This document shows positions 11,732 through 48,882 of a stretch of 64,000 nt of DNA, in pieces; position 1 is the stretch's first letter; each line of letters opens with the position of its first letter. Source of the stretch: Myxococcales bacterium (lineage in GTDB: Bacteria; Myxococcota_A; Polyangia; Polyangiales; Polyangiaceae). The position numbers and the translations under genes were made by a program. Under the pieces are notes generated by a model. That model saw nothing but the letters and a program-made list of their open reading frames with translations, ran no database searches and was not told where the DNA came from. The DNA lies in contig JACPVJ010000197.1 in NCBI GenBank assembly GCA_016191785.1, forward strand, positions 1 through 64,000, written 5' to 3'.

Positions 11732-13762
11732 TCAGAGCCGAGTGATGCGATTCGCGGGGCCGGGCGCGGTGGGCGTGTGCGCCGCCATGAAGCTCATGAG
11801 CGCATCGAGATCGAGCCCGCCGGGGGTCGGATCGGTGCCGCTCTTGAGCACCGCGAAGCCGTCGCCGCCCGCGGCGATGAAGGCGTTCACGGTGATTCGG
11901 TAGCTCTGCGTCGGCACGACCACGACGCCGCCGATCTTGATGGTCGACGGATCGACGCGGCTGCCGATGGGCTTGGTCGAGTCCCAGGTGTAGGAGAAAC
12001 CGGCGGAGACCTGGAGGGTGTTGGCCTTCTCGACGCCGCCCACGAGCGACCACTGCTGCTCGAGCATGGTGTCGAGCTGCTCGCCGGTGACGGTGACCGT
12101 CACCAGCGTGTTTCCGAAGGGCTGAACCGTGAAGGCCTCGCCGTAGGTCACCTGCCCGGCGGCCTCGCCGCCGCTCGACTGGGCGAAGATCAGGTCGGCT
12201 CGGATCCCGCCCGGGTTCATGAAGGCCGCCACGGCCTGGTTGCCTTTCGTGGCTTCGAGCTGGGCGTCGGCGATCACGTCGCCCAGCGGCGACTCGCCAG
12301 CGAGGTTGGGGGTCTTGAGGATGTCCGCGCTGATGCTGGCCACGACCTTGTTGGCCAGCGGCCCCGCCACGGCGTCGTACTTGGTGATGAGCGCGGTCTG
12401 CTCGGCGTCCTTGGCCACCGTGCGGGTCGCGATCACGTTCTGCCCCTTGAGCTTGGTGACGTGGCCCGTGAGCTCGTCGATCTCGAGGTCGATGTCGGTG
12501 ACCAAGCGACCGGCATGGGCGGCGCTGGTGATCAGCTTGCCGTCGATCTCACACACGTGGGCGGCGTTGGTGTGCCCGCTGACGACCACGTCCACGGCCT
12601 TGTCGAGCTGCTTCACGATCTCGAAGATCGGGCCCGAGACGCCGACGCACTCGTTGTACAGTCCCGTGGCCGCGCCGCCCTCGTGGATCAACACCACGAT
12701 GCTCTGGACGCCGCGCTTCTGGAGCACCGGAACCAGGGCGTTGATGGTCTCGGCCTCGTCCTTGAATTCGAGGCCCGAGACCCCGTCGGGCGCCGTCACG
12801 AGGGGCGTGCCTTCGAGAGTGAGCCCGATGAATCCGACGTGGGCCCCACGGAACGAGCGCACCGTGGTGCTGGGGAAGATGGTCTTCTTGGTGGTCTTGT
12901 CCACCACGTTGGCAGCCAGGTACTCGAAGCTGGCGCCGGCGAAGTCGTCCCCGTCGAGGCAACCGTCCACCGGGTGGCAGCCGCCGTTCTTCATGCGCAA
13001 GAGCTCGTCGACGCCCTCGTCGAACTCGTGGTTGCCCACCGAGGCGACGTCGAGCCCGAGCAGGTTCATCGACTCGATGGTGGGCTCGTCGTGGAACAGC
13101 GCGGACAGCAGCGGGGTAGCCCCGATGATGTCGCCGGCGGTCACGATCAGCGTGTTGGGGTTCTGCGCCTTCAGCGTCTTGATGTGGGTAGCGAAGAACT
13201 CGGCCCCGCCCGCCTCGACGAAGTCGGTGGCGGGGTTCGGGCCGGTGGTGATCTTGCCGGTCGAACCGGAGGGCGGCTTCAGGTTGCCGTGAAAGTCGTT
13301 GAACGCGAGCAGCTGGACCGGAACCGTGCCGCACGCCCACTCGGCGTGAGCCGTGGCGTACGCCCGAAGCTGCTTGAACGCCTTGGGCCCGACCCACTTG
13401 ACGGCGTCGAGCGCGGCCAGATCCTTGAACCAGTTGTCGTCGTGGGTTCCGAGCACGCCGTCCGCGCCTTTGCGAGACGCAACGATGTAGGCTGCGGCCT
13501 TCGAGTAGAGCGCCGCGTCGTCGTCCAGGACCTCGACGCTGGCCTCGCTGGCCAGGCGTAAGACCGCGCACGCCTCGGGGCTGCCGTCCTTGATGCCGGC
13601 GACGTCGGCCTTGCCCGTCAGAAACGGGTCGTCCTCGCCGTCTGCCTCTTCCTCGCCGGTCGCCGCGCCCGACTCGGTATCCGCTGAGCAGGCGACCGCA
13701 GCCGCCGGAACCAGCCCCGCCAAGAGAGCGCCGATACGCCAAAGCTTCGAGATGGTGTGCAT
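11732..13762 (-). CDS. 5'-nucleotidase / bifunctional metallophosphatase lipoprotein
   Basis: This 676-residue lipoprotein (lipobox AVAC near residue 25) first has a short helix-hairpin-helix-like segment (about 60-125; DGVLGTHDDNW, VGPKAFKQL) of a kind often seen in myxobacterial secreted proteins. The calcineurin-type metallophosphatase domain follows: AFNDFHGN, GDIIGATP, GNHEFDEG and VVSGHTN carry the metal ligands. The C-terminal 5'-nucleotidase domain holds NPGGIRADL, TVQPFGN and AAGGDGF. It should hydrolyse extracellular or periplasmic nucleotides, salvaging nucleosides and phosphate. ATG 13762 is preceded by GGGGAGA at the correct distance, which decides the start over codons further upstream. 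Downstream genes on this strand begin 51 bp away. Confidence 0.92.
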   Translation of the reverse strand: MHTISKLWRIGALLAGLVPAAAVACSADTESGAATGEEEADGEDDPFLTGKADVAGIKDGSPEACAVLRLASEASVEVLDDDAALYSKAAAYIVASRKGADGVLGTHDDNWFKDLAALDAVKWVGPKAFKQLRAYATAHAEWACGTVPVQLLAFNDFHGNLKPPSGSTGKITTGPNPATDFVEAGGAEFFATHIKTLKAQNPNTLIVTAGDIIGATPLLSALFHDEPTIESMNLLGLDVASVGNHEFDEGVDELLRMKNGGCHPVDGCLDGDDFAGASFEYLAANVVDKTTKKTIFPSTTVRSFRGAHVGFIGLTLEGTPLVTAPDGVSGLEFKDEAETINALVPVLQKRGVQSIVVLIHEGGAATGLYNECVGVSGPIFEIVKQLDKAVDVVVSGHTNAAHVCEIDGKLITSAAHAGRLVTDIDLEIDELTGHVTKLKGQNVIATRTVAKDAEQTALITKYDAVAGPLANKVVASISADILKTPNLAGESPLGDVIADAQLEATKGNQAVAAFMNPGGIRADLIFAQSSGGEAAGQVTYGEAFTVQPFGNTLVTVTVTGEQLDTMLEQQWSLVGGVEKANTLQVSAGFSYTWDSTKPIGSRVDPSTIKIGGVVVVPTQSYRITVNAFIAAGGDGFAVLKSGTDPTPGGLDLDALMSFMAAHTPTAPGPANRITRL

Positions 13763-13890
13763 TTTTCTCCCCGTGCCTGATGTAGGTGCCAGCCTCACAG
13801 TGGCGCACTATGTACGAGCACGGGGCACATTACAATCCTCATTTCGACGACGACCGTCCAAGACGGCACTCGGGCAGAGCGCGTGTGCGC

Positions 13891-15355: not shown

Positions 15356-17443
15356 ATGTCGATTCGTCGTTCCTCGATCGCCGGCTGGCTCTTGGCCGGC
15401 GTGTTTGTCGTGGCTTCAGGTTGCGGGGGGGACGGTACCGACGGCAAAGACGGAAAAGCCGGAGTGAATGGCGCAGACGGGTCGCCGGGTGAGCCCGGCC
15501 AGAACGGCGCCGACGGCTCTGTCGGCGAGCCCGGCCCCGCCGGCGAAGCTGGTCCGCCGGGGAAGCCCGGGCAGGGCTACCTGGCGCTCGAGGAGGCAGG
15601 CATCGTCGGCTTCGTGAAGGACACCGCCGACAAACCCGTGGTGGGCGCAACGGTGTACCTGGTGCCGAGCACCGACATCCCCAAGACTGCGCTCGAGCCG
15701 AAGGACATCACGGTCGAGAAGACCAGCGCCATCGACGAGCCGCTCGAAGATCCCATCGCCGGCAAGGGCAGCGGCTACACCCAGGCCGTCACCGATGTCG
15801 ACGGCGTTTACCGCATCCCGACCGTACCCGCGGGCAGCTACTTCGTGACGGTGGTGCCCGCGAAGACGGATGACGCGCACCTCCCGGGCGGGAGCATGTG
15901 CAGAACGGCGGCGGCCTCGACCGCGCTGGTCGGCAAGCAGTGGAACATCGATCTTTCCACCAAGCCCAGCGCGAAGGCCGAATACGTGGGCACCAGCGTG
16001 TGCCTGTCGTGTCACGGGGTGACCCATCAGAAGCAGACACTGCACGCGCTGGGTCTGCGCGTGATGGGGCAGACCGGCGGACTGCAGAACTACAGCCGGT
16101 TCCCCGAGTGGAACAAACCGCTCGACACCAAGTTCACGGCCACGGGCACGACGCTCTACGTCTACGGGTACAACGGCAACTCCGCCTCCCCCGACTGGAA
16201 GGTCTCGGAGACCAACCCCGGTTCTGGAGTGAGCTTCACGATCAAGCTCTATTCGGCCGCCGGAAAGTACTACGTCGATCTGACCAACGTGGCCGGAACG
16301 GCTGCGACGAAGACCTACGAGACTCGCATCAGTTACGGTGGCGGCCTCTACAAGCAGCGCTACCTCACCAAGCTGGGCACGAGCTGGTACGTCATCCCGC
16401 TGCAGTTCAACTTCCAGGGCCAGGCGAACGAGGGCGCTCACCCCTACGCACGCTGGGTCTGGCAGCACTACAACGCCCAGAACTGGTACGACGAGGCGAC
16501 CAAGAGCCTGAAGGAGCCGGCCAAGACGAAGAGCTTCGACAACAACTGCGCGGGCTGCCACATGACGGGCTTCAAGCTCACCGGGGACGCCACCAGCGGG
16601 TGGACTGCCCACGGCGTGGCCGACGAGAAGGGCGAGATGGACTTCGATGGCGACGGAAAGCTCGAGCAGCTGAACATGGGCTGCGAGACCTGCCACGGAC
16701 CAGGCTCGGAGCACTGGGAGTGGGCCGGCCAGGGCCGCGCAGTGGTCAGCCCCAACCTGCTCACCCCCGAGCGCGAGGTCGCGATCTGCACCCAGTGCCA
16801 CAGCCGCCCGCTGGGGATCGGCGGCGGCGCCACCGAGACCCCGATGGGCGCGAATGGGCGGATGCCGCTGGCCGGCATCTCACGCGCCGACTTCTTGGCG
16901 AATCACGTGTCGAAGTTCGACGAGGGCCTGTGGGACGCGGTCAAGGGTGACGGCAAGCACTCCAAGAAGCATCACCAGCAGGCGTCGGACTTCATCCGCT
17001 CGGGCAAGTACCGCAACGGCACGCAGCTGATGACCTGCGCGTCTTGCCACGACGCCCACGGCAAGAGCGAAGAGAAGCACCAGCTGCGCGGCGAGGAAGA
17101 CAACACTGCCACCGGCGAAGGGCAGTGCATGAGCTGCCACGGCGCGACCTTCCCGACGGGCGCCACGTTCAGCGACCGCATGCGCGCGCACTACAAGAAG
17201 TACAACGTCCCGGACGTGCCCAAGGCCAATGTCAAGTGCGTCTCGTGCCACATGCCCAAGACGGCGAAGTCGGGCTCGGGCCTCCCCGGCCTGTCGGTGA
17301 GCGGCACGACCTACTACCACGGTGACATTTCGAGCCACATCTTCGACGTGCCACTCAAGGCCAGCATCCCGACCAAGGCCGCCGACATGATGCCGATCCC
17401 GCACACCGATGCGTGCGGCAGCTGCCACCCGTTCGCGCAGTAG
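15356..17443 (+). CDS. Octahaem c-type cytochrome lipoprotein with collagen-like head
   Basis: The protein has 695 residues. A signal with lipobox ASGC (Cys 23) is followed by about 15 Gly-X-Y triplets (residues 26-72, such as GADGSPGEPG), a collagen-like stalk. Next comes a carboxypeptidase-regulatory-like beta domain (about 80-185; GATVYLVPS, TDVDGVYRIPTVPAGSY). The cytochrome part has eight CXXCH motifs: CLSCH (from 216), CAGCH, CETCH, CTQCH, CASCH, CMSCH, CVSCH and CGSCH near the C-terminus. The haems should sit on the outer surface or in the periplasm, tethered by lipid and stalk. Several extra His residues (HYKKY, GDISSHIF) could be distal ligands. The gene opens the multihaem region. 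It may act as terminal reductase or electron relay; the substrate is unknown. Confidence 0.9.
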   Translation: MSIRRSSIAGWLLAGVFVVASGCGGDGTDGKDGKAGVNGADGSPGEPGQNGADGSVGEPGPAGEAGPPGKPGQGYLALEEAGIVGFVKDTADKPVVGATVYLVPSTDIPKTALEPKDITVEKTSAIDEPLEDPIAGKGSGYTQAVTDVDGVYRIPTVPAGSYFVTVVPAKTDDAHLPGGSMCRTAAASTALVGKQWNIDLSTKPSAKAEYVGTSVCLSCHGVTHQKQTLHALGLRVMGQTGGLQNYSRFPEWNKPLDTKFTATGTTLYVYGYNGNSASPDWKVSETNPGSGVSFTIKLYSAAGKYYVDLTNVAGTAATKTYETRISYGGGLYKQRYLTKLGTSWYVIPLQFNFQGQANEGAHPYARWVWQHYNAQNWYDEATKSLKEPAKTKSFDNNCAGCHMTGFKLTGDATSGWTAHGVADEKGEMDFDGDGKLEQLNMGCETCHGPGSEHWEWAGQGRAVVSPNLLTPEREVAICTQCHSRPLGIGGGATETPMGANGRMPLAGISRADFLANHVSKFDEGLWDAVKGDGKHSKKHHQQASDFIRSGKYRNGTQLMTCASCHDAHGKSEEKHQLRGEEDNTATGEGQCMSCHGATFPTGATFSDRMRAHYKKYNVPDVPKANVKCVSCHMPKTAKSGSGLPGLSVSGTTYYHGDISSHIFDVPLKASIPTKAADMMPIPHTDACGSCHPFAQ

Positions 17444-17459
17444 CGCGGCCCGCCCGCCT

Positions 17460-17744
17460 TCAGCCCTTCGAAGCCGGCTCCGATTTCGGGGCCGGCTTCG
17501 ACGTTGGTGGGAGCGAGCTGCGGGCGCCGGGGCGCGTGGCCATCTCGACCAGCACAGCCAAGCCGAAGCACGCAAAGCCGACCACGCACAACACGTGGCC
17601 CACGCTCATCGCAGCGATCACGGGCAGCGGCTTCGGGACGACGATCGAGTAGCTCATCACCGCGAGCGCGGCGAGCACGGCGTAGCAAGCGCTGCGTAGC
17701 AAGAGAGCCTGCGGCCAGCCCGCCAGCTTGCTGCGCAGGCTCAC
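17460..17744 (-). CDS. Small two-TM protein coupled to NapC-like cytochrome
   Basis: This 94-residue protein starts at GTG 17744, which overlaps the TGA of the NapC-like gene in a GTGA sequence, so translation is coupled. It has two hydrophobic segments (ALLLRSACYAVLAALAVMS and AMSVGHVLCVVGFACFGLAVL) and a Pro/Ser/Lys-rich C-terminal tail. No haem motif is present. It is likely an inner-membrane accessory or anchor for the quinol-oxidising cytochrome. I know no family name for it. Its last codons overlap a 10-bp inverted repeat. Confidence 0.7.
   Translation of the reverse strand: MSLRSKLAGWPQALLLRSACYAVLAALAVMSYSIVVPKPLPVIAAMSVGHVLCVVGFACFGLAVLVEMATRPGARSSLPPTSKPAPKSEPASKG
17469..17500. terminator. 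Bidirectional hairpin between convergent genes
   Basis: There is a perfect 10-bp inverted repeat (CGAAGCCGGC and GCCGGCTTCG) with a 12-nt loop. It lies 25 bp after the octahaem gene and inside the 3' end of the convergent small membrane-protein gene. No T-run follows, as usual in very GC-rich genomes, so intrinsic termination is only possible, not shown. Confidence 0.45.
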
Positions 17745-18463
17745 GGCGCACCTCCCGAGGCCGGCGGCGCCGCGCTGCTCGCCGCCGGTGCCGCGCTGGC
17801 CGAACCAGCGGGTTTCACCGTGCTCTTCTTCGGTGCCTTCTTGCCGAACTTGCTGAACGGGTGGGCGAAGCCGTGGCAGCCGCCGCTGGTGCAGCTGACC
17901 TCGTTCTTCCCGAGCTCTTTCTCGAGCGACTGGTGGTCCGAGATGCTCTTGAAGTGAGTCAGCGAGCCCGAGTGACACTGGCGGCAGTTGACGTTGTCGT
18001 AGGGCTTGTAGAGATCGATCTCGTCGATGGCGTGGTCGAGGGATTTGTCCTTGAACCCGCCGAAATAGTAGTGCCAAACGTGCTTCATGCCGTTCAGTTT
18101 GGTCATCGGGTACCCGAGCATCCCGTAGTCGGCATGACACACGTAGCAGTTGCGCTCGCCGAAGAACGGGTTGCGCGCGTGGCGAGCGGCCAGCGAGTCG
18201 CTCGCCGCGTGCTCGGCGTTCCACGTGTGGCCTTGCATGACGTGGCACGAGCCGCAGAATCTGCGCTCCGTCGTCGCTTGCATCCCGACGGTGGTCGATG
18301 CGATGGCCACCGCGGCTGGGAGCACGCCCACACCGAAGAGCAGCGTGAGCTTGGTGGTGAGCCCCAGCGCTGGCTTCTTCACCAGGTACCAAATCACGAT
18401 CGCCGCGGACGCCAGAGCCGCGACCAAACAGAGATACCCGACGGGAGTGACGTGTGACAGCAC
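17741..18463 (-). CDS. NapC/NirT-like tetrahaem membrane cytochrome
   Basis: The protein has 240 residues. It has two hydrophobic segments (8-28 and 39-61) and then a periplasmic tetrahaem domain: CGSCH (70-74), CYVCH (106-110), CRQCH (160-164) and a fourth site with CX4CH spacing (CTSGGCH, 191-197). The tail is Lys/Ala/Pro-rich. NapC/NrfH-type proteins oxidise membrane quinol and pass electrons to periplasmic cytochromes. They normally have one N-terminal anchor and four CXXCH sites, so the second hydrophobic segment and the CX4CH site are unusual. GTG 18463 has AGAGGA upstream. The start is divergent from the 27-haem gene with 56 bp between them, so the two are probably co-regulated. Confidence 0.85.
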   Translation of the reverse strand: MLSHVTPVGYLCLVAALASAAIVIWYLVKKPALGLTTKLTLLFGVGVLPAAVAIASTTVGMQATTERRFCGSCHVMQGHTWNAEHAASDSLAARHARNPFFGERNCYVCHADYGMLGYPMTKLNGMKHVWHYYFGGFKDKSLDHAIDEIDLYKPYDNVNCRQCHSGSLTHFKSISDHQSLEKELGKNEVSCTSGGCHGFAHPFSKFGKKAPKKSTVKPAGSASAAPAASSAAPPASGGAP

Positions 18464-18519
18464 TGTGCGGGATCCTCTTTGTCATTTCGCGCCGGCTGAG
18501 GCAATCTCCCCGATTGCTC

Positions 18520-20268
18520 ATGAGCTCGGAGCGGCGGTCGTGCGCAGAGTTTGCGCTGCGCGGATGGAGCACGGCGATGCTCGTCCTCGCGTGCGCGGTC
18601 TCATCTGCCTGCGGCGACGACGGCGGCGAGCACGGCTCGGGCATTCAGATCCCCGTCGAGTGGGCCCAGGCTCGCCGGGTGAAGAGCCATCAGGTTCACG
18701 TCGGCAAGCGCAAGATCGAGTGCAGCAAGTGCCACGAGCTCGACCGCGGAGCGCTCGGACGCGCGCCGCAAGAGCGGTGCGCCGAGTGTCACGAGGGCGA
18801 GGCCGAGATCGTGCACGCCGCCAGCAAGGCCAAGGAAGCGCACGGCCCGCAGGCGGGCGCAAGCTGCCTCGATTGCCACTCTTTCACCGTCGAAGCCAGC
18901 CAAGATCCCAAGAGCACGCCCGCTGCGTGGGAGTGCCAGCGCTGCCATGCCGAGCACCCGATCGACGACGCGCCCGCAGTGGTGGTGCACCGCTCGCAGG
19001 CTTGCCGCAGCTGCCACCAGCCGCACGCCAAGCCGCCGGTGGAGCAGACCAGCTGCCCCACGTGCCACAGCGGCGTGAACGCGACCCACGCGACCGAAGG
19101 CAAGGCGCCCGAGCGCGTTTGCACGACCTGCCACGTGTCGCAACACGCGCTCGGCAAGGCCGCCAATCTGCAGTGCCCGAAGTGCCACGCCGAGCAGAAG
19201 CCGATTGTCCCAGCCACGGCCACCTTCGCCGGAGGACACGAGACCTGCACGGGCTGTCACCGCCCCCACGACTTCCGTCCGGAAAGCGTGGTCAGCTGCC
19301 GGTCGTGTCACGAGGACCGCCCGGTGCTCGGCGGCGGTCGCATCCCGCAGCACGCGGCGTGCAACTCGTGCCACCGCCCGCACGACGTGAGAGCCGATCC
19401 GAGCGGCGCCTGCATCGCCTGCCACGGCGCCGGTAAGACCGACCACCCGAAGGCCAAGGGAAAGGCATCACCGTGCACCTCGTGCCACGATCCTCACCCC
19501 GGCAACGCGGTGGCGGCAAGGCCCCGAGCGTGCTCTAGCTGCCATTCGGAGGCTCCGGGCGACAAGGGCTTCCACGCCAAGGGCGTGGCGTGCACGTCGT
19601 GCCACGTTCCGCACCGCTTTGCCCTGGACAAAGCCAGCACGACCACCTGCGCGCGCTGTCACACTCAGCAGGTGGCGTTGACGCTACAGAGCGACGGGCA
19701 TCGCAAGTGCGGCGATTGTCACGCCGGGCTGCCCCACAAACCCAGCGCGGTGAAGACCTGCGGCAGCTGCCACGAGAAGCCCGCGGCGCAGGTGAACCGC
19801 GGCCACTCGGACTGTCAGCGCTGCCACGAGCCGCACAGCACGAAGGTGCAGAAGCGCTGCGACGGCTGCCATTCGCAAGAGCATCAGACAGCGCCGGCCG
19901 GGCACAAGGCGTGCGCCAGTTGCCACGAGGCACACACCGGCGAAACCAAGCCTGGGGGTTGCGGCCGATGCCACGCCGAGCAACAGAAGGCGCCCCACTC
20001 GAAGGTGGACGGCGGCTGCGCCAAATGCCATCGGCCCCATGGCCCGGGCGGCACAGCCAAGCCGCCGGCCTGCTCCAGCTGTCATCAGCAGGGCTCGCTC
20101 AAGGGCCTGCACCTCGATGCTCGTCACCGTGACTGCCTCAAGTGCCACACCGGTCATGGCGACCAGCGACCCGAGCGGGCGGCCTGTGGCGCTTGCCACA
20201 CGAATCTGCAAAAACACCACCCGGAAGCGGAGCGCTGCAGTGGTTGTCATCTGTTCAAAGGCGGCTGA
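18520..20268 (+). CDS. 27-haem c-type cytochrome
   Basis: This 582-residue exported protein contains 27 CXXCH motifs, about one per 21 residues, from CSKCH near the N-terminus to CSGCH close to the end. Many are followed by PH or have a His about 10 residues upstream (CHRPH, CHQPH, CHVPH), which fits bis-His haem ligation. There is no recognisable non-haem domain, so the protein is essentially a haem wire. The signal peptide has Arg residues, then MLVLACAVSSAC, which may be a lipobox. I chose ATG 18520 because it keeps the positive n-region; GTG 18454 and ATG 18577 are alternatives. It ends 3 bp before the OB-fold gene. Role: long-range electron transfer, either periplasmic or outside the cell. 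The terminal acceptor is unknown. Confidence 0.9.
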   Translation: MSSERRSCAEFALRGWSTAMLVLACAVSSACGDDGGEHGSGIQIPVEWAQARRVKSHQVHVGKRKIECSKCHELDRGALGRAPQERCAECHEGEAEIVHAASKAKEAHGPQAGASCLDCHSFTVEASQDPKSTPAAWECQRCHAEHPIDDAPAVVVHRSQACRSCHQPHAKPPVEQTSCPTCHSGVNATHATEGKAPERVCTTCHVSQHALGKAANLQCPKCHAEQKPIVPATATFAGGHETCTGCHRPHDFRPESVVSCRSCHEDRPVLGGGRIPQHAACNSCHRPHDVRADPSGACIACHGAGKTDHPKAKGKASPCTSCHDPHPGNAVAARPRACSSCHSEAPGDKGFHAKGVACTSCHVPHRFALDKASTTTCARCHTQQVALTLQSDGHRKCGDCHAGLPHKPSAVKTCGSCHEKPAAQVNRGHSDCQRCHEPHSTKVQKRCDGCHSQEHQTAPAGHKACASCHEAHTGETKPGGCGRCHAEQQKAPHSKVDGGCAKCHRPHGPGGTAKPPACSSCHQQGSLKGLHLDARHRDCLKCHTGHGDQRPERAACGACHTNLQKHHPEAERCSGCHLFKGG

Positions 20269-20271
20269 TCG

Positions 20272-21087
20272 ATGGCGGTAGACATGAAGATGAGCTGGGT
20301 GCTGGGCGCGGTGATCGTGGCCGCAGGTGGGTATGCCGTGTTCGGCGAGAGCTTCCGCCGCGACCGGCCGATGCCCGAGCCGACCTCGGCCCGCCCGGCC
20401 GCGCCCCTCCCCGACTTGGACCAGGCGCCCGCCGCGTCGGGCCTGATCGAAGGCACCGCGCTCGAGGTACTCGACGTACCGGGTTACTCCTACATTCGAG
20501 TGGGCCCCGCCGGCTCCGAGGGTCAGTGGGTCGCGGTCACCACCGCGAACGTGAAGACCGGAGCGCTCGTGCGGGTGCGCTCCGACACGGTGATGACCGA
20601 CTTCGAGAGCAAGACGCTGGGCCGCGTGTTCGCCTCGATTCACTTCGGTTCACTGGTCGACGGCAAGGCGGCCGGGCCGCTACCGCCCGGTCACCCGCCC
20701 GCCGACCCGGCGCTGCCGCCCGGTCACCCGCCCGCGGGTGTCAAGCCGGCTCCCGCCCCGAGCGTGGCCACCGGAAAGGCAACCGGGGCGAACGCGCGAA
20801 CCATCGTCGAGATCTTCTCGCAGAAGCAGGCGCTGGCCGGCAAGAAGGTCCGGGTGCACGGCACCGTGGTCAAGCTGACCAGCGGCATCATGGGCAAGAC
20901 CTTCCTGCACCTGCGCGATGGCACCGGCAGCGAGGCGGCGAAGAACCACGACCTGACCGTGACCACCACCGAAGAGCTGGCTCGCGACCAGAGCGTGACC
21001 TTGGAAGGCACGCTGGTGCTCGACAAGGATCTGGGCGCTGGGTACCGCTACGACGCGTTGCTCGAAGACGCGGTCAGCGTGAAGTGA
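20272..21087 (+). CDS. Membrane-anchored OB-fold protein of cytochrome locus
   Basis: This 271-residue protein has an N-terminal membrane anchor (about 8-27) and a first OB-like domain (55-125; EVLDVPGYSYIRV, GQWVAVTTANVKTGALV, DFESKTLGR). A Pro/His-rich hinge carries two LPPGHPP repeats (20690-20740). A second OB-fold domain (180-270; VRVHGTVVKLTSGIMGKTFLHLRDGTGS) resembles the bacterial NirD/BOF-type nucleic-acid-binding OB fold, but its predicted location is periplasmic. From memory, similar proteins occur next to multihaem cytochrome genes in delta-proteobacteria-like genomes and may help in cytochrome assembly. It follows the 27-haem gene after 3 bp, so the two form an operon. The exact function is unknown. 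Confidence 0.72.
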   Translation: MAVDMKMSWVLGAVIVAAGGYAVFGESFRRDRPMPEPTSARPAAPLPDLDQAPAASGLIEGTALEVLDVPGYSYIRVGPAGSEGQWVAVTTANVKTGALVRVRSDTVMTDFESKTLGRVFASIHFGSLVDGKAAGPLPPGHPPADPALPPGHPPAGVKPAPAPSVATGKATGANARTIVEIFSQKQALAGKKVRVHGTVVKLTSGIMGKTFLHLRDGTGSEAAKNHDLTVTTTEELARDQSVTLEGTLVLDKDLGAGYRYDALLEDAVSVK

Positions 21088-21088
21088 G

Positions 21089-22726
21089 TCACGGCACGAG
21101 GCCGGTCACCAGGCCGTCGACGTGGGTGTCGGGGAACAGGAACTTGAGCGTCGAATCGACGTTCTTGTGACAGAACCAGCACGCCGTCGACTGGACGTGC
21201 GGTGCCGGTGGAGGCAGCGCGTGACAGCCGTCGCAGCCCGCCTGGCTCCCGTCGACCACGGTCCACTTCGGCGCGGTGTGCTTGCCCCCTGACGGCGCGC
21301 CCCCCGGGAACGCCGCGCCGTGGCAGTAGCTCTTGCCGCAAACACCGTTCGCGTAGCTGGGCGCCGCGCCGGCGGTCAGCGCGACGCCGCCGAAGGCCAG
21401 CTCGGCAGGGCCCGAGCTGTCGAGGTGCCCGGGGTCCGTCACGGCCTTGGGGACCACGTGGCACTCGGCGCAGGGCACCGCCCGCGCACGCCCGTTGCTG
21501 GTCAGGTGGGCCTGGTGCGCTCCGACGCCCGGCGACGACGTGGACGAGCTGCCAGACAGGTCGCTCGGGGGTGCGTCGGTGGCGCCGCCGTGACAGCCGT
21601 TGCACTTCTCGGGGACTGCTACGTCGACCTTGCCGTCGACGTGCTTCGACCGGGCCGTGATGGTCACGTGGTCTTCACCGACCACGTCGGCGTGACATCG
21701 CCCGCACGCCTTCATCTGGACGTGCGGCGCCGGCGGCGGCATCGCGTGGCAGCCCGTGCACGCCAGGCGCCCGGTGTCGCTGGTCCACTGGGGCGAGGCA
21801 GCGGGCGCCGAGGGCGAGTGGCACCAGGCGTCGTTGCACGTGCGCGCCTGCCGCTGCCAGCTGGGATTGCGCTGCTTGGAGAGCCCCACCCCCGAGAAGA
21901 CGACCTCGGCCGGGGGGTCGGAGTCGACGTGCCCGGGGTCGCCGTACTTGGCCGGGACCTGGTGGCACTCACCGCACGCCAGCGCCCGGCCAGCGGCACC
22001 GCCCGAAAGGTGGACGCGGTGGGCACCGACCCCGAGCGCGGTCACACCATCGTTGCCGGCGAGGTCGCGCGGCGGCGCAGGGTCGCCGTCACTTCCGTGG
22101 CAAGCGTCGCACGCGAAGTTGCCGAGCTGAACCTTGCCGTCCACGTGGAGCGCGGCGTTCACGAAGCCCGCTTGGCCGATCACTTCACCGTGACAGCTGT
22201 GGCACTTTGCATTCTGCGGGTGCGGGGCCGGCGGTGGCAACCCATGGCAGCTGCCGCAGGCCGCATCCGATGACCGCGGCGCGGTCCACACCGCGTCGGC
22301 GGTGCGGTGGCAGTACGAGTCGGTGCAACGACCAACGGCCGCGTCGTAGCTCGGAGCCCTGCCCCCCTGCTTGGCCACTACGCCGAACGTGAGCTCGGCG
22401 GGCAGTGCGTCGTCGGCATGACCCGGATCGTCGGTGGACTTCGGTACCACATGGCACTCGGCGCACGCCACCGGGCCGTGGGTCGCGCTGGCGCCGAGGT
22501 GGCTCTGATGAGCGCCCACGCCGGGTTGCGCGACGCTAGAGCCACCCGCGAGATCCCTGGGCGGCGCCGCCCGCTCGAGCGCGCTGCCGCCGCGAGTGGA
22601 GTCGCCGTGACAAGACGAGCAGGCCGACTCGTGCTCGCGGCGTTCGTCGTCGCGCACGCGCTGGCAGCCAGGCGCCGAAGCTGCGGCCCAGAGAACGAGC
22701 AGCGTCCACCTCAGGTCAATTCTCAT
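21089..22726 (-). CDS. 15-haem c-type cytochrome of three 5-haem modules
   Basis: This 545-residue lipoprotein (Cys 21 in SAPGC) has fifteen haem motifs: twelve CXXCH and three CX4CH (CTDSYCH, CNDAWCH, CGKSYCH). The order CXXCH, CXXCH, CX4CH, CXXCH, CXXCH repeats three times, with matching spacer sequences such as PPRDLAG, VGAHQSHL, PGHxD, PAELxFG and LPPPAPH. This pattern fits the Geobacter-type CxxxxCH/CxxCH cytochrome family. ATG 22726 lies 11 nt inside the end of the upstream 12-haem gene, so the two are translationally coupled. It is probably the outer-face partner of the porin and the 12-haem lipoprotein. The start further upstream in frame is rejected because it overlaps coding sequence and lacks a signal. 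Confidence 0.9.
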   Translation of the reverse strand: MRIDLRWTLLVLWAAASAPGCQRVRDDERREHESACSSCHGDSTRGGSALERAAPPRDLAGGSSVAQPGVGAHQSHLGASATHGPVACAECHVVPKSTDDPGHADDALPAELTFGVVAKQGGRAPSYDAAVGRCTDSYCHRTADAVWTAPRSSDAACGSCHGLPPPAPHPQNAKCHSCHGEVIGQAGFVNAALHVDGKVQLGNFACDACHGSDGDPAPPRDLAGNDGVTALGVGAHRVHLSGGAAGRALACGECHQVPAKYGDPGHVDSDPPAEVVFSGVGLSKQRNPSWQRQARTCNDAWCHSPSAPAASPQWTSDTGRLACTGCHAMPPPAPHVQMKACGRCHADVVGEDHVTITARSKHVDGKVDVAVPEKCNGCHGGATDAPPSDLSGSSSTSSPGVGAHQAHLTSNGRARAVPCAECHVVPKAVTDPGHLDSSGPAELAFGGVALTAGAAPSYANGVCGKSYCHGAAFPGGAPSGGKHTAPKWTVVDGSQAGCDGCHALPPPAPHVQSTACWFCHKNVDSTLKFLFPDTHVDGLVTGLVP

Positions 22727-23741
22727 GGCAGTACCTGCACGTGCCCGAGCCCTCCGAGCGCGCGCTCTTCCAGCCCTTGGGGTGGGGGTTGCCACCGTAG
22801 GCGCCCACTTTGTGGCAGCGGATGCAGTTGGTCGCGGGGCCCTGCTCGTGGCAGCCCGCACAGCTCGTCACGTCACGCCGGGCGTCGCGGCCGTGGCCGC
22901 TGGGCGCGCCGGTGATCCAGCCAGCTGGGTGCGGGCTCCGACCGTTCTTGTGCCCGCCACTCACCCCGCGCTCGAGGTGGCAGCCATCACAGCTGGCGGG
23001 CGTGTGACAGCGTGCGCACTTCGCCGGCTGCGACTGGGCTTCGATGGCATGACGCGAGACGAAGTCGCCGCGGTGGATCAATTTGCGCTCGATGGCCTCG
23101 GGGCGGCGCCGCTCGACCGAGAGGTCTTGGCTTACGTCGTGGCAGTCGTCGCAGTGCTGCTGGGTGTGGCACTGCTGGCAGAGCTTCTGCTGCTGGCGTG
23201 CCGCTTGGCCGTGGTTGCGCTGAAAGCCGGCGTCGTGCTTGGCAAACGACTGCGGCAAGAGCCGTTCGAGGTCCTTTCTGACGTGGCACGGGGCGCACTC
23301 GGCACGGTCCCATTGCTTCCGGTGCTCGTGACACTCGAAGCAGCGTTCCATCACCGGGAAGAGCGGCGAATCACCCTCGGTGGCACCGGCATGACAGGGC
23401 ACGCACTGGCCCTTCACCTCGGGCATGGCAAGGTGCTTTTGATGGCTGAACCGAATAGTGTACGCCAAGGGCGGTGGCACGTGAACGGGCGGGGTGACCG
23501 CGAGCATCTGCGGGTCGTCGCCGCGGTGACAGCGCGCGCACAGCTGCTTGTCGGGGAAGACCTTCTTCGGCGTGGCAGTGAGCGAGTGGCACGTGGTGCA
23601 GCGCAAACACTCGGGGAGCCCGGGCCCGCCGCAGCTGAGAGCCGAGAGGTGCTGCGCATGGGGGAACCGGCTCGGCTCACGGTCGGCGCAGGCCAGGGCC
23701 AGGGCGACCGTGCAGGCGAGGGCGAGGAACAGGCCCTTCAC
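22716..23741 (-). CDS. 12-haem c-type cytochrome lipoprotein
   Basis: This 341-residue lipoprotein starts at GTG 23741, which overlaps the TGA of the porin gene (GTGA). The signal ends in lipobox ALAC. Twelve CXXCH motifs follow: CTTCH, CARCH, CVPCH, CFECH, CAPCH, CQQCH, CDDCH, CARCH, CDGCH, CAGCH, CIRCH and a C-terminal CRYCH. Closely spaced pairs (CQQCHTQQHCDDCH, CARCHTPASCDGCH) suggest parallel haem stacks. By analogy with porin-cytochrome conduits of metal-reducing bacteria, this would be the cytochrome held within or against the barrel; this is inferred from gene order, not shown. Confidence 0.9.
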   Translation of the reverse strand: MKGLFLALACTVALALACADREPSRFPHAQHLSALSCGGPGLPECLRCTTCHSLTATPKKVFPDKQLCARCHRGDDPQMLAVTPPVHVPPPLAYTIRFSHQKHLAMPEVKGQCVPCHAGATEGDSPLFPVMERCFECHEHRKQWDRAECAPCHVRKDLERLLPQSFAKHDAGFQRNHGQAARQQQKLCQQCHTQQHCDDCHDVSQDLSVERRRPEAIERKLIHRGDFVSRHAIEAQSQPAKCARCHTPASCDGCHLERGVSGGHKNGRSPHPAGWITGAPSGHGRDARRDVTSCAGCHEQGPATNCIRCHKVGAYGGNPHPKGWKSARSEGSGTCRYCHEN

Positions 23742-25096
23742 TTGGGACCTCCCGAAGTGAAGCGGATTCGGAGTTGCGTCTGCGCATCGGCGGTGGCGTG
23801 GGGCGTGCGAGCATACGAGGCGCCCCACAACGCCGCGAGCTCGGGCGACAGCGACCACTCGACCGTGCCGGCGTATACGCTCGACGTGTCGTAGCCGGCG
23901 ATGGGCTCGTCGTAGCGGTAGTGGTACGCCTCGAGCGTGGTGGAGACGTCGAGCTGAATGCGCTGGCGCCAGGCGTTGCGCATCGACAAGTAGCCGTTGT
24001 CCGGGGCGCTCACCCGGGTCACGGACAAGAGCAGGACCGTGCGCTCGGTGCGGCCGGGAGTGATGCGCGCGCCAACCTCGGTGCGCTGTCCCAGGTCGCC
24101 CGGTGAGTAGATCTGCACGAAGCCCGAGCCGGTGAGGGTCAGCTGGCGCCAGAGCTTGGCGCGGAAGCTGCCGCCGGCCTCTTCATAAGCATCCGTCGAA
24201 AACACGGCGAGCACGCTCTGCCGCGAAAGAAACAACGCAGGCTCGGCGTGCAACACCTCGGCCTCGAGCTCGAGCGGGGTCAGCGGCGTGTAGTGCGCCC
24301 ACAGGCGGCCATCGGCGACCCGCCGGGCGTCGAGCTCGAGGACGGCGTTGCCCCCGACGGTGACCTTCTGCGACGCGTCGAAGCGGGCATCGGCCCCGAG
24401 GTTCCGGTAGGCGAGCCCCTCGGCCTCGTGCTGCTCGTGCACCGAGGCACCGACATCGAGCTCCGGCGAGTCGTAGAACAGGCGACCGCCGGCCAGCCAG
24501 TGCTCGGCGCGACGCGGCTCGGCAAGCGCATCGGGATCGCGCCACAGCGACTCGGCGGCGGAGCCGAGCTGATGGTAGCCCGGTCGCGCCGCCCACCGCG
24601 GCAAGACCGTGAGCCCGGCGTAGGCCTCGGCACCAACCCCCCCGGGCAGCGTGGCGCCCGCAGCGAGTCCGTCGAAGCGGGCATAGCGAGCCGCGCCCCC
24701 CGCCACGTGTTGCCGGCCCAGGCGCAGCCACCCAGGACCCGTCCGATAACGCACGTTGGCGTTCTGCACGTCGCCGTCCATTCGCCGACCCGCCCCGGCT
24801 TCCCCGAAGGTGGCGCTCCCCCAGAGGTCGAGCTCGACGTCGAGGCTCTGCTTCTGCCAAGGCGCATCCAGATCGTGCGCGGTGAGCGACACGTACTCGA
24901 CGACCGGGGCGGCGGTCTGCTCGGTGACCAGGGCGCCGTGCGGTCCGGGCAAGAGCGCCCGCTGGTAGAGACGGAAGTGCGTCTCGCTCCTGACCAGGAC
25001 CTGAGGGCCGTGCGCGTCGACGTCGGCAGGCTGGGCCAGCGCCGTAGACGCCCACGCGACCGCAACGGCCAGGCACCGACAGCGCATCCCGCTCAC
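23738..25096 (-). CDS. Outer-membrane beta-barrel of cytochrome operon (porin-like)
   Basis: The protein has 452 residues. After a signal peptide (RCRCLAVAVAW, cleavage after ALA) the chain alternates short amphipathic strands (LDVELDLWGSATF, ANVRYRTGPGWLRLG, LELEAEVLHAE, LTLTGSGFVQIYS) and ends in a typical barrel-closing strand (QTQLRIRF). It lacks Cys beyond the signal. It heads a tightly coupled operon with the 12- and 15-haem cytochromes, which is the gene order of porin-cytochrome electron conduits (compare MtrB/MtrA/MtrC and the Pcc complexes). Sequence similarity to those porins cannot be judged by eye. I chose GTG 25096 since GAGGA sits 7 nt before it; ATG 25087 and GTG 25114 are alternatives. 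Confidence 0.8.
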   Translation of the reverse strand: MSGMRCRCLAVAVAWASTALAQPADVDAHGPQVLVRSETHFRLYQRALLPGPHGALVTEQTAAPVVEYVSLTAHDLDAPWQKQSLDVELDLWGSATFGEAGAGRRMDGDVQNANVRYRTGPGWLRLGRQHVAGGAARYARFDGLAAGATLPGGVGAEAYAGLTVLPRWAARPGYHQLGSAAESLWRDPDALAEPRRAEHWLAGGRLFYDSPELDVGASVHEQHEAEGLAYRNLGADARFDASQKVTVGGNAVLELDARRVADGRLWAHYTPLTPLELEAEVLHAEPALFLSRQSVLAVFSTDAYEEAGGSFRAKLWRQLTLTGSGFVQIYSPGDLGQRTEVGARITPGRTERTVLLLSVTRVSAPDNGYLSMRNAWRQRIQLDVSTTLEAYHYRYDEPIAGYDTSSVYAGTVEWSLSPELAALWGASYARTPHATADAQTQLRIRFTSGGPK

Positions 25097-31754: not shown

Positions 31755-31757
31755 GCG

Positions 31758-33494
31758 ATGCACGAAGCACTGGCGTTCCACGTCGACGGACCCCGCGCTG
31801 CCGCGCTCTCGAAGAAGCGCGGCGGGTCCGGCGCGTGGCTGATGGTGCTCGGCATCTTCGGCATGTTGTTCGGCTCGTTCTGGATGCTGTGGGGTGTCGT
31901 CGTGGTGCTGACGGGCGTGGGCGTGGGCAACGGCATCATCGTGTTCTTCTTCGGCGGCCTGGGTCCGGCGCTCGGAGCCGCGATCGTCGCTTGGGCCGGC
32001 GTGCGGCGGCGGCGAGATGCCGAAGATCTGATCGAGCTCCAGCTGATGTCCGAGGGTCGGCCCGAGGTGACGCTGGACGAAGCAGCGCTGTTGATCGGCC
32101 GGGACCCCACCGGTCTCTTGCGGCTGGCCGGGCAGCACGGCGCGGCGACGCCAGTGCAAAGCTCGGGCTTCCGCGCCGCATCCCTGCCGGACGTGGACAC
32201 CCGAGCGCTAGCCGCGTTTCGCCGCTCGCGTCTGCGGCGCGCGCTCGTGCTCGCGCTGTGTGCGCTGGGTGTGCTCGCGTTCGCCACGCTGTGGATCGTG
32301 GTCGGCATCGCGGGGATTGCCACCGGCGAGTGGCTGGTGGGGCTCTTGCTCTTGATCCCCGGCGGTGCGTTCCCGACGGCCGGTGCGATCGCGCTCGCCT
32401 GGCGCGCGTCGACCAGCTGGCGTCGCTCGGCGCGAGCCGCGCGCCTGGCCGCCGCGCTCTCGTCTCGCACCGTGACGGGCATCGACGATCTCGCGCGACG
32501 CATGCACGTGTCGCCGAGCGTGGCTCGCTCGACGGCGCTCGAAGCGCTCGAGCTCGGGCTCGTCCCGCGTCAGGCGCTCGCGCGTTTGCTCGGGCCCTCC
32601 CAGCCCGGCGCGTCGAGCCCACCGCCGGGGCCGATCCCGCTCAGCGCCTGGCTGGGTCGAACCCTCGAGAACACGTGGCTGGTCGAGGCGCCGCTCTCGC
32701 ACGGCGGCATGGGCGCGGTGTTCCGGGGGCGGCATCTGCAGAGCCGCCACGCGGTGGCGATCAAGGTGCTCTTGCCCGAAGTGATGGGAAGTGAAGAGGC
32801 CCTGCGGCGCTTCGAGCTCGAGGCCGTCACCGCGAGCCGGCTCGGGCACCCGGGCATCGTGCGCATCCACCACTTCGGGCGCAGCGCCGAGGGCGCGGCG
32901 TACATGGTGATGGACCTGCTCGAGGGCGAGACGCTGGAGGCCTGCCTGCAACGTCGCGGGGTCCTGCCCTGGGGCGAGGCGCGGCGCATCGCCATCGAGA
33001 TCGGCGAGGCCCTCGCGGTGGCTCACGACGCGGGGCTCATCCACCGGGACATCAAGCCCGCCAACGTCTTCTTGACCGCTGGACGGGCGGTGCTGCTCGA
33101 CTTCGGGTTGGTCAAACCGCTGGACGAATCGGCGGTCTCACGCATGACCACCAGCGGCGTGGTGGCCGGGACGCCGCTCTACATGTCACCCGAGCAGGCA
33201 CGCGGTGAACCGCTCGACGTGCGCTCGGACGTGTACGGACTGGCCGTGGTCACCTACGAGATGGTGGCCGGCGTGCCGCCGTTCTTCGACAAGACGGTGG
33301 CCGAGGTCTACGCCCGGCTCTTGCGCGAGACGGCGCCGCGGCTCGGCCAGGTCGCGCCGGCGGCCTGCCCGCCGGCGCTCGACGCCACGCTGGGTCGCGC
33401 GCTCTCACCGTTGCCCGGAGACCGCCAGCCCACCCTCCGCGAGCTGGTCGCCGAGCTCGCCGCCATTCCTGCAGCGGACGCTTTGACCGGCTGA
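31758..33494 (+). CDS. Membrane Ser/Thr protein kinase, kinase domain C-terminal
   Basis: The protein has 578 residues. The order of parts is unusual for a bacterial receptor kinase: four hydrophobic segments come first (two near 27-80, two near 155-200). A short helical region resembling a helix-turn-helix (DDLARRMHVSPSVARS, about 240) is next, and the catalytic domain is last (about 300-570). Kinase motifs: glycine loop SHGGMGAVF (about 313-320), VAIKVL, HRDIKPAN (His 429), DFG (448-450) and SPEQ. All catalytic residues are present, so it should be active. It sits 3 bp after the STAND regulator gene and is probably in the same transcript, which suggests phosphorylation of that regulator. 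Confidence 0.88.
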   Translation: MHEALAFHVDGPRAAALSKKRGGSGAWLMVLGIFGMLFGSFWMLWGVVVVLTGVGVGNGIIVFFFGGLGPALGAAIVAWAGVRRRRDAEDLIELQLMSEGRPEVTLDEAALLIGRDPTGLLRLAGQHGAATPVQSSGFRAASLPDVDTRALAAFRRSRLRRALVLALCALGVLAFATLWIVVGIAGIATGEWLVGLLLLIPGGAFPTAGAIALAWRASTSWRRSARAARLAAALSSRTVTGIDDLARRMHVSPSVARSTALEALELGLVPRQALARLLGPSQPGASSPPPGPIPLSAWLGRTLENTWLVEAPLSHGGMGAVFRGRHLQSRHAVAIKVLLPEVMGSEEALRRFELEAVTASRLGHPGIVRIHHFGRSAEGAAYMVMDLLEGETLEACLQRRGVLPWGEARRIAIEIGEALAVAHDAGLIHRDIKPANVFLTAGRAVLLDFGLVKPLDESAVSRMTTSGVVAGTPLYMSPEQARGEPLDVRSDVYGLAVVTYEMVAGVPPFFDKTVAEVYARLLRETAPRLGQVAPAACPPALDATLGRALSPLPGDRQPTLRELVAELAAIPAADALTG

Positions 33495-37329: not shown

Positions 37330-37382
37330 CCGCCGCCCCGGAATCTGGGCCCGGCAACCCGGCGTGGTAGGCTTCGGGATCC

Positions 37383-38903
37383 GTGACGGACAGCCCGAGC
37401 GTCGAGCCCATCCGGATCATCGGCCGCTACGCGCTCCACCAGGAGATCGCGGCCGGTGGCATGGCCACGGTCCACCTCGGCCGACTCCTCGGCCCGGCCG
37501 GTTTCTCTCGCACCGTCGCCATCAAGCGCCTGCACGCTCAGTTCGCCAAGGACCCCGAGTTCGTCAGCATGTTCCTGGACGAGGCCCGGGTCGCGGCGCG
37601 CATTCGCCACCCGAACGTGGTCTCGACCCTCGACGTGGTGGCGCTCGACGGTGAGCTGTTCATCGTCATGGACTACGTCGAGGGGGAGTCGCTGGCGCGC
37701 CTGATCCGCGCAGCCAAAGGGCGGGGCGAGTGGATCCCGCGCAAGAACTCGATCGCGCTGATGACCAACGTGCTCTATGGCCTGCACGGGGCACACGAGG
37801 CGAAGGGCGAGCGCGGCGAGCCGCTGGGCATCGTCCACCGCGACATCTCACCCCAGAACATCTTGGTCGACATCGACGGCACCGGGCGGGTCGTCGACTT
37901 CGGCGTGGCCAAAGCCGTGGGTCGCCTTCAGACCACGCGGGACGGGCAGCTCAAGGGCAAGCTCTCCTACATGGCGCCGGAGCAGCTCAAGGGCGAGGCG
38001 GTCGATCGCCGCACCGACGTGTTCGCTGCCAGCATCGTGCTGTGGGAGCTGCTCACGGGCCGGCGCTTGTTCCAGTCCGAGAACGACGCGGCCACCTTCG
38101 GGAAGGTGCTCACCGCAGAGGTCCCCCCGCCCAGCAGCCTCGAGCCCGCGCTCTGGCCCGAGCTCGACGCCGTCGTGCTCAAGGGGCTGGCCAGGAACCT
38201 GGACGATCGCTACGCGACGGCGCTCGACATGGCCGAAGAGCTCGAGGGTGCGGCTCGTGAGCGTCCCACGCAACGCGCCCTGGGCACCTGGGTGCGCGAG
38301 CTCGCAGCGGAATCGCTGGCACGGCGCGCCGATCAGGTGCGCGAGCTCGAGAGTCACTCGGCGGTCGTCGCGTTGGTGGGCCAGCCCGACCCGAGCTCGA
38401 TTTCGTCGCCGAGGATCGAGCCGCCGCGTCTCGCACCGACACAGCCGATGCCGCAGCACCTGCCGCGCGACGAAGCGAGCGGCAACTCGAACCTGTCGAG
38501 CATCTCCGTCGCGCGCGGTCGCACCCTGCCGCCAACGGGCCGAGACCGGCGGCAGCTGATGCTGATCCTGGGCGGCATCGCCGGCCTGCTGGGGTTCCTG
38601 GTGATCCTGGGCGGCTTCTTGCTGATCCGGCGCGCGACCCGCCCGGTCGACGGTGGCTCGAGCATCGAGCCGCTCTCCGAGCCTGTCACGCCCGCGGCCA
38701 GCGCCGCGCCCGAGCCGCCGGCAAGGGCGGTGGCCCCGGATCCCGCTCCGCCGCCCTCGGCGGTCGCCGAGCCCACGCCGTCGGCGGCTGAGAAGAAGCC
38801 CGTTGCGCCGAAGCCGCAACCGGTCAAGCCCAAGGGCAACTGCAACCCGCCCTACACGCTCGACAAGGACGGCACGCGGATCCCGAAACCCGAGTGCCTC
38901 TAG
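37383..38903 (+). CDS. Membrane Ser/Thr protein kinase
   Basis: The protein has 506 residues. The kinase domain spans about 14-285: glycine loop IAAGGMATVHLG, VAIKRL, HRDISPQN (Ser in place of the usual Lys, common in myxobacterial kinases), DFGVAKA and MAPEQ. A linker of about 100 residues leads to one membrane span (about 393-415, LILGGIAGLLGFLVILGG). The external C-terminal region is Pro/Ala-rich and ends with a Cys pair in a short motif (GNCNPPYTLD, KPECL). This tail is typical of myxobacterial Pkn kinases. GTG 37383 is the start. The external tail could sense an extracellular signal. The target is unknown. Confidence 0.9.
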   Translation: MTDSPSVEPIRIIGRYALHQEIAAGGMATVHLGRLLGPAGFSRTVAIKRLHAQFAKDPEFVSMFLDEARVAARIRHPNVVSTLDVVALDGELFIVMDYVEGESLARLIRAAKGRGEWIPRKNSIALMTNVLYGLHGAHEAKGERGEPLGIVHRDISPQNILVDIDGTGRVVDFGVAKAVGRLQTTRDGQLKGKLSYMAPEQLKGEAVDRRTDVFAASIVLWELLTGRRLFQSENDAATFGKVLTAEVPPPSSLEPALWPELDAVVLKGLARNLDDRYATALDMAEELEGAARERPTQRALGTWVRELAAESLARRADQVRELESHSAVVALVGQPDPSSISSPRIEPPRLAPTQPMPQHLPRDEASGNSNLSSISVARGRTLPPTGRDRRQLMLILGGIAGLLGFLVILGGFLLIRRATRPVDGGSSIEPLSEPVTPAASAAPEPPARAVAPDPAPPPSAVAEPTPSAAEKKPVAPKPQPVKPKGNCNPPYTLDKDGTRIPKPECL

Positions 38904-43984: not shown

Positions 43985-43990
43985 CGACGG

Positions 43991-46458: not shown

Positions 46459-46470
46459 CGACCCAGCCTA

Positions 46471-46504
46471 GCGCTATCGTGCGCCAATCACATGACCGAC
46501 CGCA
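46471..46504. repeat. 34-bp direct repeat, left copy
   Basis: The 34-bp sequence starting GCGCTATCGTGCGCC is repeated perfectly at 47154-47187. This copy contains an ATG that opens only a short frame (about 25 codons, no feature). The two copies bracket the DUF4160/DUF2442 pair. Confidence 0.95.
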
Positions 46505-46625
46505 CGCAGCCGACCCGAGCGACGCAGACTGCCGGGGCGTCGCGGTCGAGGTCGGGGAGTTCCCGCTGACAGGCTCGAGGCCCCGTGCATTGCTCGAAGC
46601 CGCAACGCCAGCTAGGCTCGTCGAC

Positions 46626-47137: not shown

Positions 47138-47153
47138 CACGGGCGGCGCTGGC

Positions 47154-47187
47154 GCGCTATCGTGCGCCAATCACATGACCGACCGCA
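47154..47187. repeat. 34-bp direct repeat, right copy, includes SDR start codon
   Basis: This copy is identical to 46471-46504. The ATG at 47175 within it is the start codon of the SDR gene, and the first few codons (MTDR) are also part of the repeat. Confidence 0.95.
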
Positions 47188-48372: not shown

Positions 48373-48405
48373 GGCGCCCCCTTTAGCACGGGGTTCGTGC
48401 CAGAG

Positions 48406-48774: not shown

Positions 48775-48850
48775 GAAATGACCCTCCAGCGTCGGGAGTA
48801 ACACGAACCCGGCCCAGCCGTCAGCCAGGCTCTTCGCCGAGAGAACTGCC

Positions 48851-48864: not shown

Positions 48865-48882
48865 CTGGTATCGTGCGGCGGC

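Follow-up and report, generated by a model that had tools for sequence, protein, structure and literature searches.

We analysed a 64,000-nucleotide window (positions 1 to 64,000 of contig JACPVJ010000197.1) from an 8.3-Mb assembly of a Myxococcales bacterium of the family Polyangiaceae (GCA_016191785.1; 95% complete, 216 contigs), in which genes for multihaem c-type cytochromes lie beside the gene for an outer-membrane beta-barrel. The cluster spans positions 15356-25087, where an 8-haem gene (plus strand), a NapC-like gene (minus strand), a 27-haem gene and a gene for an OB-like protein (both plus strand) are followed, on the minus strand, by 15-haem, 12-haem and barrel genes. When reading the frames from the window, we recovered the 66 haem motifs in five cytochromes that a first-pass annotation of this DNA had claimed, made up of 62 CXXCH and 4 CX4CH (8-haem protein, 8 CXXCH; NapC-like protein, 3 CXXCH and 1 CX4CH; 27-haem protein, 27 CXXCH; 15-haem protein, 12 CXXCH and 3 CX4CH; 12-haem protein, 12 CXXCH). 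In 1000 residue shuffles of each of these proteins, CXXCH arose on average 0.014 to 0.56 times and at most 1 to 4 times, and the observed haem count is therefore not a product of chance. The gene overlaps described earlier were likewise confirmed in the sequence, with the barrel stop codon overlapping the GTG start of the 12-haem gene by 4 bp and the 12-haem stop codon overlapping the ATG of the 15-haem gene by 11 bp.

The barrel and its two adjoining cytochromes

The barrel gene (23738..25087, minus strand) encodes a protein of 449 aa with a signal-like N-terminal helix. An AlphaFold 2 (AF2) model built from 70 input sequences, with a mean predicted local distance difference test score (pLDDT) of 88.3 and a predicted template modelling score (pTM) of 0.81, contains 22 strands of at least 10 residues and no separate plug domain, and residues 14-22 and 173-182 fall below a pLDDT of 50. 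By a textbook formula for an idealised backbone at 40 degrees tilt, and not by measurement on the model itself, 22 strands give a diameter of about 40 Å, compared with 48 Å for 26 strands and 33 Å for 18. On the 22 strands of the model we rejected an ordinary 16- or 18-strand porin, and the prospect raised by the first-pass annotation that the protein might model as an unrelated transporter was not borne out, since the modelled barrel is wide and unlike a narrow porin. No Pfam or NCBIfam family matched the window barrel at E 0.05.

The 12-haem cytochrome (P0006; 22716..23741, minus strand, GTG start) is a candidate periplasmic or intra-barrel protein of 341 aa with Pfam c7/c3-type repeats. A search of genome contigs for its family found 95 relatives, of which 80 were kept; 25 of 30 12-haem frames and the window's own entered one alignment (A1), and 79 of the 80 loci and the window's own, with L105 left out, entered another (A5). 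Besides its 12 CXXCH motifs P0006 has 15 other histidines, and across 80 aligned rows 11 of these are His in every row and H140 in 78, with only His 87, 196 and 264 not conserved. The 12 haems are thus matched by 12 conserved candidates for the distal ligand, which would fit bis-His ligation throughout. The number of CXXCH per row in the family alignment is 13 in 44 rows, 12 in 33, 11 in two and 14 in one. Given that the cysteine of a lipobox-like segment, Cys18, is kept in 79 of 80 rows, the 12-haem protein is itself probably lipidated. Compared with PDB, the family profile matched 3ov0_A best (E 7.5e-29) and also matched 6r2q_A, which we take to be MtrA (E 2.6e-8).

The third gene of the set (21089..22726, minus strand, ATG start) encodes a 15-haem putative surface lipoprotein, which gives the cluster a candidate outer-membrane multihaem cytochrome with a lipobox-like N-terminus and a predicted surface location. 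Closer inspection of this protein revealed three 5-haem units that are 41-50% identical and share the motif order CXXCH, CXXCH, CX4CH, CXXCH, CXXCH. TIGR01904 (CxxxxCH/CxxCH cytochrome) lies above its cut-off in three stretches, but, set against the TIGR01904/PF09698 cytochromes at large, the window protein is encoded together with a barrel as a unit. Among 78 non-identical 15-haem-like frames, the window included, 24 consist of a whole number of such blocks: one unit in 3 frames, two in 4, three in 12 (the window among them), four in 4 and seven in 1. The other 54 frames deviate from exact multiples, some of them cut by contig edges. A crude pattern, which can give false hits, placed a lipobox-like cysteine before the first haem in the window protein and in 39 of 50 frames of its type, as well as in 15 of 32 frames of the 27-haem family and 0 of 5 of the 8-haem family; this pattern scans the 150 residues before the first haem, so that the window 8-haem protein, whose lipobox (residue 23) lies further upstream, scored negative. 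A literature search, with most subscription papers outside it, found no description of a 5-haem-block surface cytochrome or of the wide barrel family. The block series of 1 to 7 offers a natural set for testing haem-chain length against reach and rate.

Recurrence of the barrel and cytochrome pair across the phylum

The first-pass annotation had proposed looking for the same gene order in other Myxococcota, and the pair of barrel and 12/13-haem genes does recur: the barrel is the direct, same-strand upstream neighbour of the 12/13-haem gene in 78 of the 80 loci found via the 12-haem family, and the two misses (L105 and L109) start at a contig edge. In one further locus, L091, the barrel frame runs 499 bp into the 12-haem match, perhaps through a sequence error. 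When 377 genomes of the phylum were searched with nothing but the barrel sequence, 34 matched, and 30 of these supplied 34 loci (the window's own and three others were left out), and by a profile check the barrel adjoins a same-strand 12/13-haem frame in 32 of these; of the two misses, L048 ends at the barrel, and in L060 the profile recognised no barrel and there was no CXXCH frame. Since the barrel sequences contain no haem motif, the association between barrel and cytochrome is not a product of motif matching. The loci used to train the barrel profile came via the 12-haem gene, a bias of which the search with the barrel sequence is free.

The barrel alignment (A4) comprised the window's sequence and those of 69 of the 80 loci with a barrel above 150 bits and 330 model columns. 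The barrel profile matches 136 of the 377 phylum genomes, with neighbours checked in only some; the search scored four candidates per genome, which may make this count a lower bound, and weak matches may include other barrels. One stretch was fetched from each of 18 of the 136 genomes, the barrel scoring 43-76 bits in 13 of these stretches, and to them we added a second pair from the window's own genome (55 bits). A same-strand 13-haem frame lies beside the barrel in 18 of these 19 loci, with L183 carrying 12 CXXCH and 1 CX4CH; the sole miss, L174, is truncated at the contig start. The three locus sets (80, 34 and 19) overlap in part. In nearly all of these loci a barrel gene adjoins the gene for a multihaem cytochrome of presumed periplasmic location, the arrangement expected of a porin-cytochrome (Pcc) cluster.

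We then considered the remaining genes of the cluster. Among the 80 loci, relatives of the 15-haem type occur in 58 (including 28 of the 31 loci of at least 19 kb), of the 27-haem protein in 31, of NapC in 22, of the OB-like protein in 10 and of the 8-haem protein in 4, and NapC and 27-haem relatives co-occur in 19. Ranked by these counts, the core is the barrel with the 12/13-haem gene, usually joined by a block cytochrome; NapC and the 27-haem protein are frequent partners, and the 8-haem protein is a local addition. The earlier claim that all stations of a single route are present is accordingly well founded for the three-gene core and less so for five cytochromes acting as one route. All seven genes are present in a same-genus relative (L031) and in Polyangiaceae bacterium MAG.220 (L065), possibly one and the same contig, and the Polyangia-like background named in the first-pass annotation is likely. 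A pair of 9-haem and 32-34-haem frames lies near the conduit in L032, L035, L036, L037, L039 and L064.

Collectively, the synteny, the ligand conservation and the barrel model lend good support to the first-pass reading of the barrel, 12-haem and 15-haem genes as one trans-outer-membrane unit, and we conclude that this core is very probably an outer-membrane Pcc conduit, a known kind of system. In such a conduit the 22-strand barrel would serve as an insulating sheath; the 12-haem lipoprotein, held by its N-terminal cysteine at the inner leaflet of the outer membrane, would thread into the barrel from the periplasm as a bis-His haem wire, and the 15-haem lipoprotein would cap the conduit at the cell surface, its three 5-haem blocks forming a chain.

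Several results weigh against this reading. Foldseek ranked the pilus ushers FimD and PapC first for the barrel model, at modest TM-scores that reach just 0.54 by query length, and neither MtrB nor any solved conduit barrel is among the best 50 of 786 matches; a sequence search of PDB chains with two barrel queries returned no match. Such fold matches would suit a secretion pore or an ordinary transporter whose neighbouring cytochromes are merely co-regulated. Ushers, however, carry extra domains beyond the barrel, and the 449 residues of the window protein comprise little beyond it, compared with 634-800 residues in the matched FimD chains; its link with the 12/13-haem gene, moreover, persists in loci that are highly divergent. 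We consider a pore or transporter of this kind highly improbable. The usher matches also count in favour of a conduit, MtrB having itself been described as structurally like other secretion proteins and about FimD-sized (PMC7198977; here and below, cited papers are represented by excerpts of their text). For the conduit as proposed, the lumen width is predicted only, a low-confidence loop (about residues 161-196) might fold into the lumen, and insertion of the 12-haem protein there is a step that we infer. The predicted structure of the 12-haem protein is weak (pLDDT 75, pTM 0.47), and Foldseek with this model gave a single match that we regard as noise. Its profile also ranks MtrC/MtrF and other multihaem PDB proteins above MtrA, so the match to MtrA is not specific. 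Finally, at the thresholds used, 13 of the 80 loci have no match to any of the other five genes; some short contigs and the two Anaeromyxobacter loci are among them. The same-genus locus L032 has 9- and 33-haem frames in the place of NapC and the 27-haem gene, and no NapC within 20 kb.

Among described systems, the nearest are the Anaeromyxobacter Pcc clusters (three strains, Group IV; Shi et al. 2014), which consist of a porin and a periplasmic cytochrome only, with no surface cytochrome, and in which, as in Kuenenia, the periplasmic cytochrome has 338-344 aa and 12-14 haem motifs (PMC4245776). We found a homologous pair of barrel and 12-haem genes, the latter with 12 CXXCH, in Anaeromyxobacter soli SG29 and A. 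terrae SG22; each genome gave a single 12-haem match at E 1e-20, and identity to P0006 in the best segment was 36 and 39%. By this homology and its length of about 340 aa, P0006 groups with the Group IV cytochromes; the likeness extends to the order of barrel then cytochrome, with Adeh_3392 compared by its published description. The published clusters have two genes, whereas the window adds the 15-haem putative surface protein, NapC and two more cytochromes. The first-pass suggestion that such a locus would be notable in a Polyangia background is tempered by this published two-gene form (PMC4245776) and by the breadth of the barrel profile matches.

Set side by side by description with the Geobacter conduits OmcBC, ExtABCD and ExtEFG, which comprise a periplasmic multihaem cytochrome, a barrel with 18-21 predicted strands and a surface lipoprotein cytochrome (Jimenez Otero et al. 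2018, PMC6148476), the window holds all three elements at gene level. In Geobacter it is typically the outer surface lipoprotein that is exchanged (PMC6148476), which by analogy agrees with the variable surface chain of the window family, and certain surface cytochromes are reported to have CX3-15CH motifs (PMC4245776). Neither a repeat of 5-haem blocks nor a NapC neighbour figures in the excerpted Geobacter account (PMC6148476). The window also resembles Shewanella MtrCAB in its sheath, multihaem wire and surface cytochrome, and through the unspecific match of the 12-haem profile to 6r2q_A. It differs from MtrCAB, however, in having 12 rather than 10 haems in the wire and a lipobox on it, 22 rather than 26 strands in the barrel model, a surface cytochrome of another family (TIGR01904) with 15 haem motifs, and a barrel without a Pfam match, and we do not assign it to that system.

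A literature search joining porin-cytochrome and Myxococcales found no paper. Within the excerpts seen, one study reports multihaem proteins in metagenome-assembled genomes (MAGs) of Myxococcota, including an Anaeromyxobacteraceae MAG, and no conduit loci (PMC11495043), another gives FeGenie counts and names no Myxococcota conduit (PMC10809760), a third makes no mention of Myxococcota (PMC12133095), and 68 c-type cytochrome genes are recorded for A. dehalogenans (PMC2330069).

We tentatively propose, as an idea that falls somewhat short of an even chance, that Myxococcota possess a distinct, phylum-wide family of conduits, with a constant core of 22-strand barrel and lipid-anchored 12/13-haem wire and with interchangeable surface chains of one to seven 5-haem blocks, block number setting the reach of the surface wire. 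The two-gene Anaeromyxobacter cluster would then be a pared-down version, and the ability to transfer electrons extracellularly would extend to many uncultured Polyangia. Myxococcota, a phylum of soils and sediments, are known mainly as aerobic predators; if the proposal is true, extracellular electron transfer would be widespread among them. The barrel profile would provide a sequence marker, which neither Pfam nor NCBIfam offered for the window barrel.

Proposed electron route and the neighbouring cytochromes

Directly beyond the 8-haem gene lies a gene for a tetrahaem protein of the NapC/NirT/NrfH type (17741..18463, minus strand), which combines a PF03264 domain (54.2 bits against a cut-off of 24.1), two N-terminal hydrophobic stretches as a putative membrane anchor and four haem motifs, and matches NrfH (2j7a_C) at E 3.5e-5. 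This protein is the sole PF03264 match found in the genome and is likely a quinol dehydrogenase. We took it to be the small inner-membrane protein of the first-pass annotation, given its hydrophobic stretches; no other small membrane protein was looked for. Its fourth haem motif is CX4CH, and 20 of 22 conduit-linked relatives share the order of three CXXCH followed by CX4CH. The divergent 27-haem cytochrome (18520..20268, plus strand) has 27 CXXCH in Pfam Cytochrome_C7/c3 repeats and a lipobox-like N-terminus, and we place it provisionally as a periplasmic or surface carrier. Its open frame extends back to a GTG at 18454, a start that would overlap that of the NapC-like gene, and an internal ATG ahead of the lipobox is therefore more likely, probably that at 18520 or else at 18574.

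In the proposed route the NapC/NrfH-type protein would oxidise menaquinol, and electrons would cross the periplasm, perhaps via the 27-haem protein, and leave by way of the conduit for an acceptor outside the cell, for example Fe(III)/Mn(IV) oxide. Outward flow is the most likely direction. The same conduit could instead carry electrons inward, with Fe(II), sulphide, humics or a different cell as donor to the surface cytochrome and with the NapC-like protein reducing quinone. Related Mtr conduits do serve Fe(II) oxidation (PMC4245776), and three COX1 matches in the genome (contigs 50 and 112) would provide an oxygen sink. According to the same excerpted source, however, no known Fe(II) oxidiser had yielded a pcc cluster by 2014, and Adeh_3392, which we liken to the window protein by description, increases under Mn(IV) reduction (PMC4245776). 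Additionally, no RuBisCO match was found in the 95% complete genome, which is weak evidence against an inward flow that serves CO2 fixation. We regard inward flow as unlikely.

Two further points count against the outward route as drawn. The COX1 matches suggest that the host can use oxygen, so the conduit route may be optional, and a NrfA-like multihaem protein encoded elsewhere in the genome could draw on the NapC-like protein instead. Contig 76 holds this NrfA-like frame (PF02335; seven CXXCH, one CXXCK) at 47643-49454 (L193), and in the 17 kb around it there is no other frame with at least two haem motifs. Given that the genome's only NapC/NirT match is at the conduit, two systems might lie side by side, with the NapC-like, 27-haem, OB-like and 8-haem proteins serving a periplasmic electron buffer or the NrfA-like protein, and in many of the 80 loci the barrel and 12-haem pair indeed occurs without them. 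On the other hand, NapC and 27-haem relatives appear together in almost a quarter of the conduit loci (these being picked by the 12-haem gene), and in the more distant members L051, L057 and L063 the NapC gene lies immediately beside the barrel gene and divergent from it. We consider two separate systems rather doubtful, if less so than inward flow. The first-pass assignment of a NapC/NirT-like quinol entry consequently stands as to family and is plausible as to role, with the possibility that the protein is shared with another system.

The other two genes of the cluster are accessory. The protein at 20272..21087 (plus strand, 271 aa), N-terminally anchored by a short hydrophobic stretch, was called an OB-fold protein by the first-pass annotation; the frame is present, but its domain is only OB-fold-like, with a sub-threshold PF01336 match (E 0.045). 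The 8-haem cytochrome (15356..17443, plus strand) is a lipoprotein-like, c7-like protein with 8 CXXCH, a collagen-like linker (PF01391, above cut-off) and a CarboxypepD_reg-like domain (PF13620, just below). Its best NCBIfam matches, decahaem GSU2203 and DmsE, fall far below their cut-offs, and at E 0.1 its PDB matches include a single cytochrome, c554 (E 0.0047, a weak match). CXXCK is a signature of octahaem reductases, if not of every octahaem enzyme. The 8-haem protein has no CXXCK and no PDB match at E 0.1 to octahaem nitrite or tetrathionate reductase, which speaks against that identity. We rejected the core as a set of periplasmic nitrogen or sulphur enzymes, a case the first-pass annotation had raised, since these tests were negative and the single PF02335 match in the genome lies elsewhere, on contig 76.

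Other genes in the host genome and window

The second pair from the host genome is diverged and lies on contig 169 at about 166836-169777 (L165), where a barrel gene adjoins a 13-haem gene; pairs like it are found in other family members (L169-L173 and L175-L178). A stretch of contig 81, at about 42700-47600 (L164), holds 17-, 23- and 10-haem frames with no barrel match in the fetched stretch. Cytochrome_C7 matches lie on both of these contigs, on contig 50 (a 5-haem frame) and on contig 45 (below cut-off); this search is no census, as it listed the 8-haem protein alone of the five window cytochromes. One TIGR01904 protein was found in the genome and, like the PF03264 protein, it is at the conduit locus. 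A search of a plasmid collection gave no match. Elsewhere in the window, a 5'-nucleotidase/metallophosphoesterase frame (PF02872, PF00149) lies upstream of the cluster at 11735-13807, and two protein kinase frames (PF00069) lie at 31755-33491 and 37371-38900.

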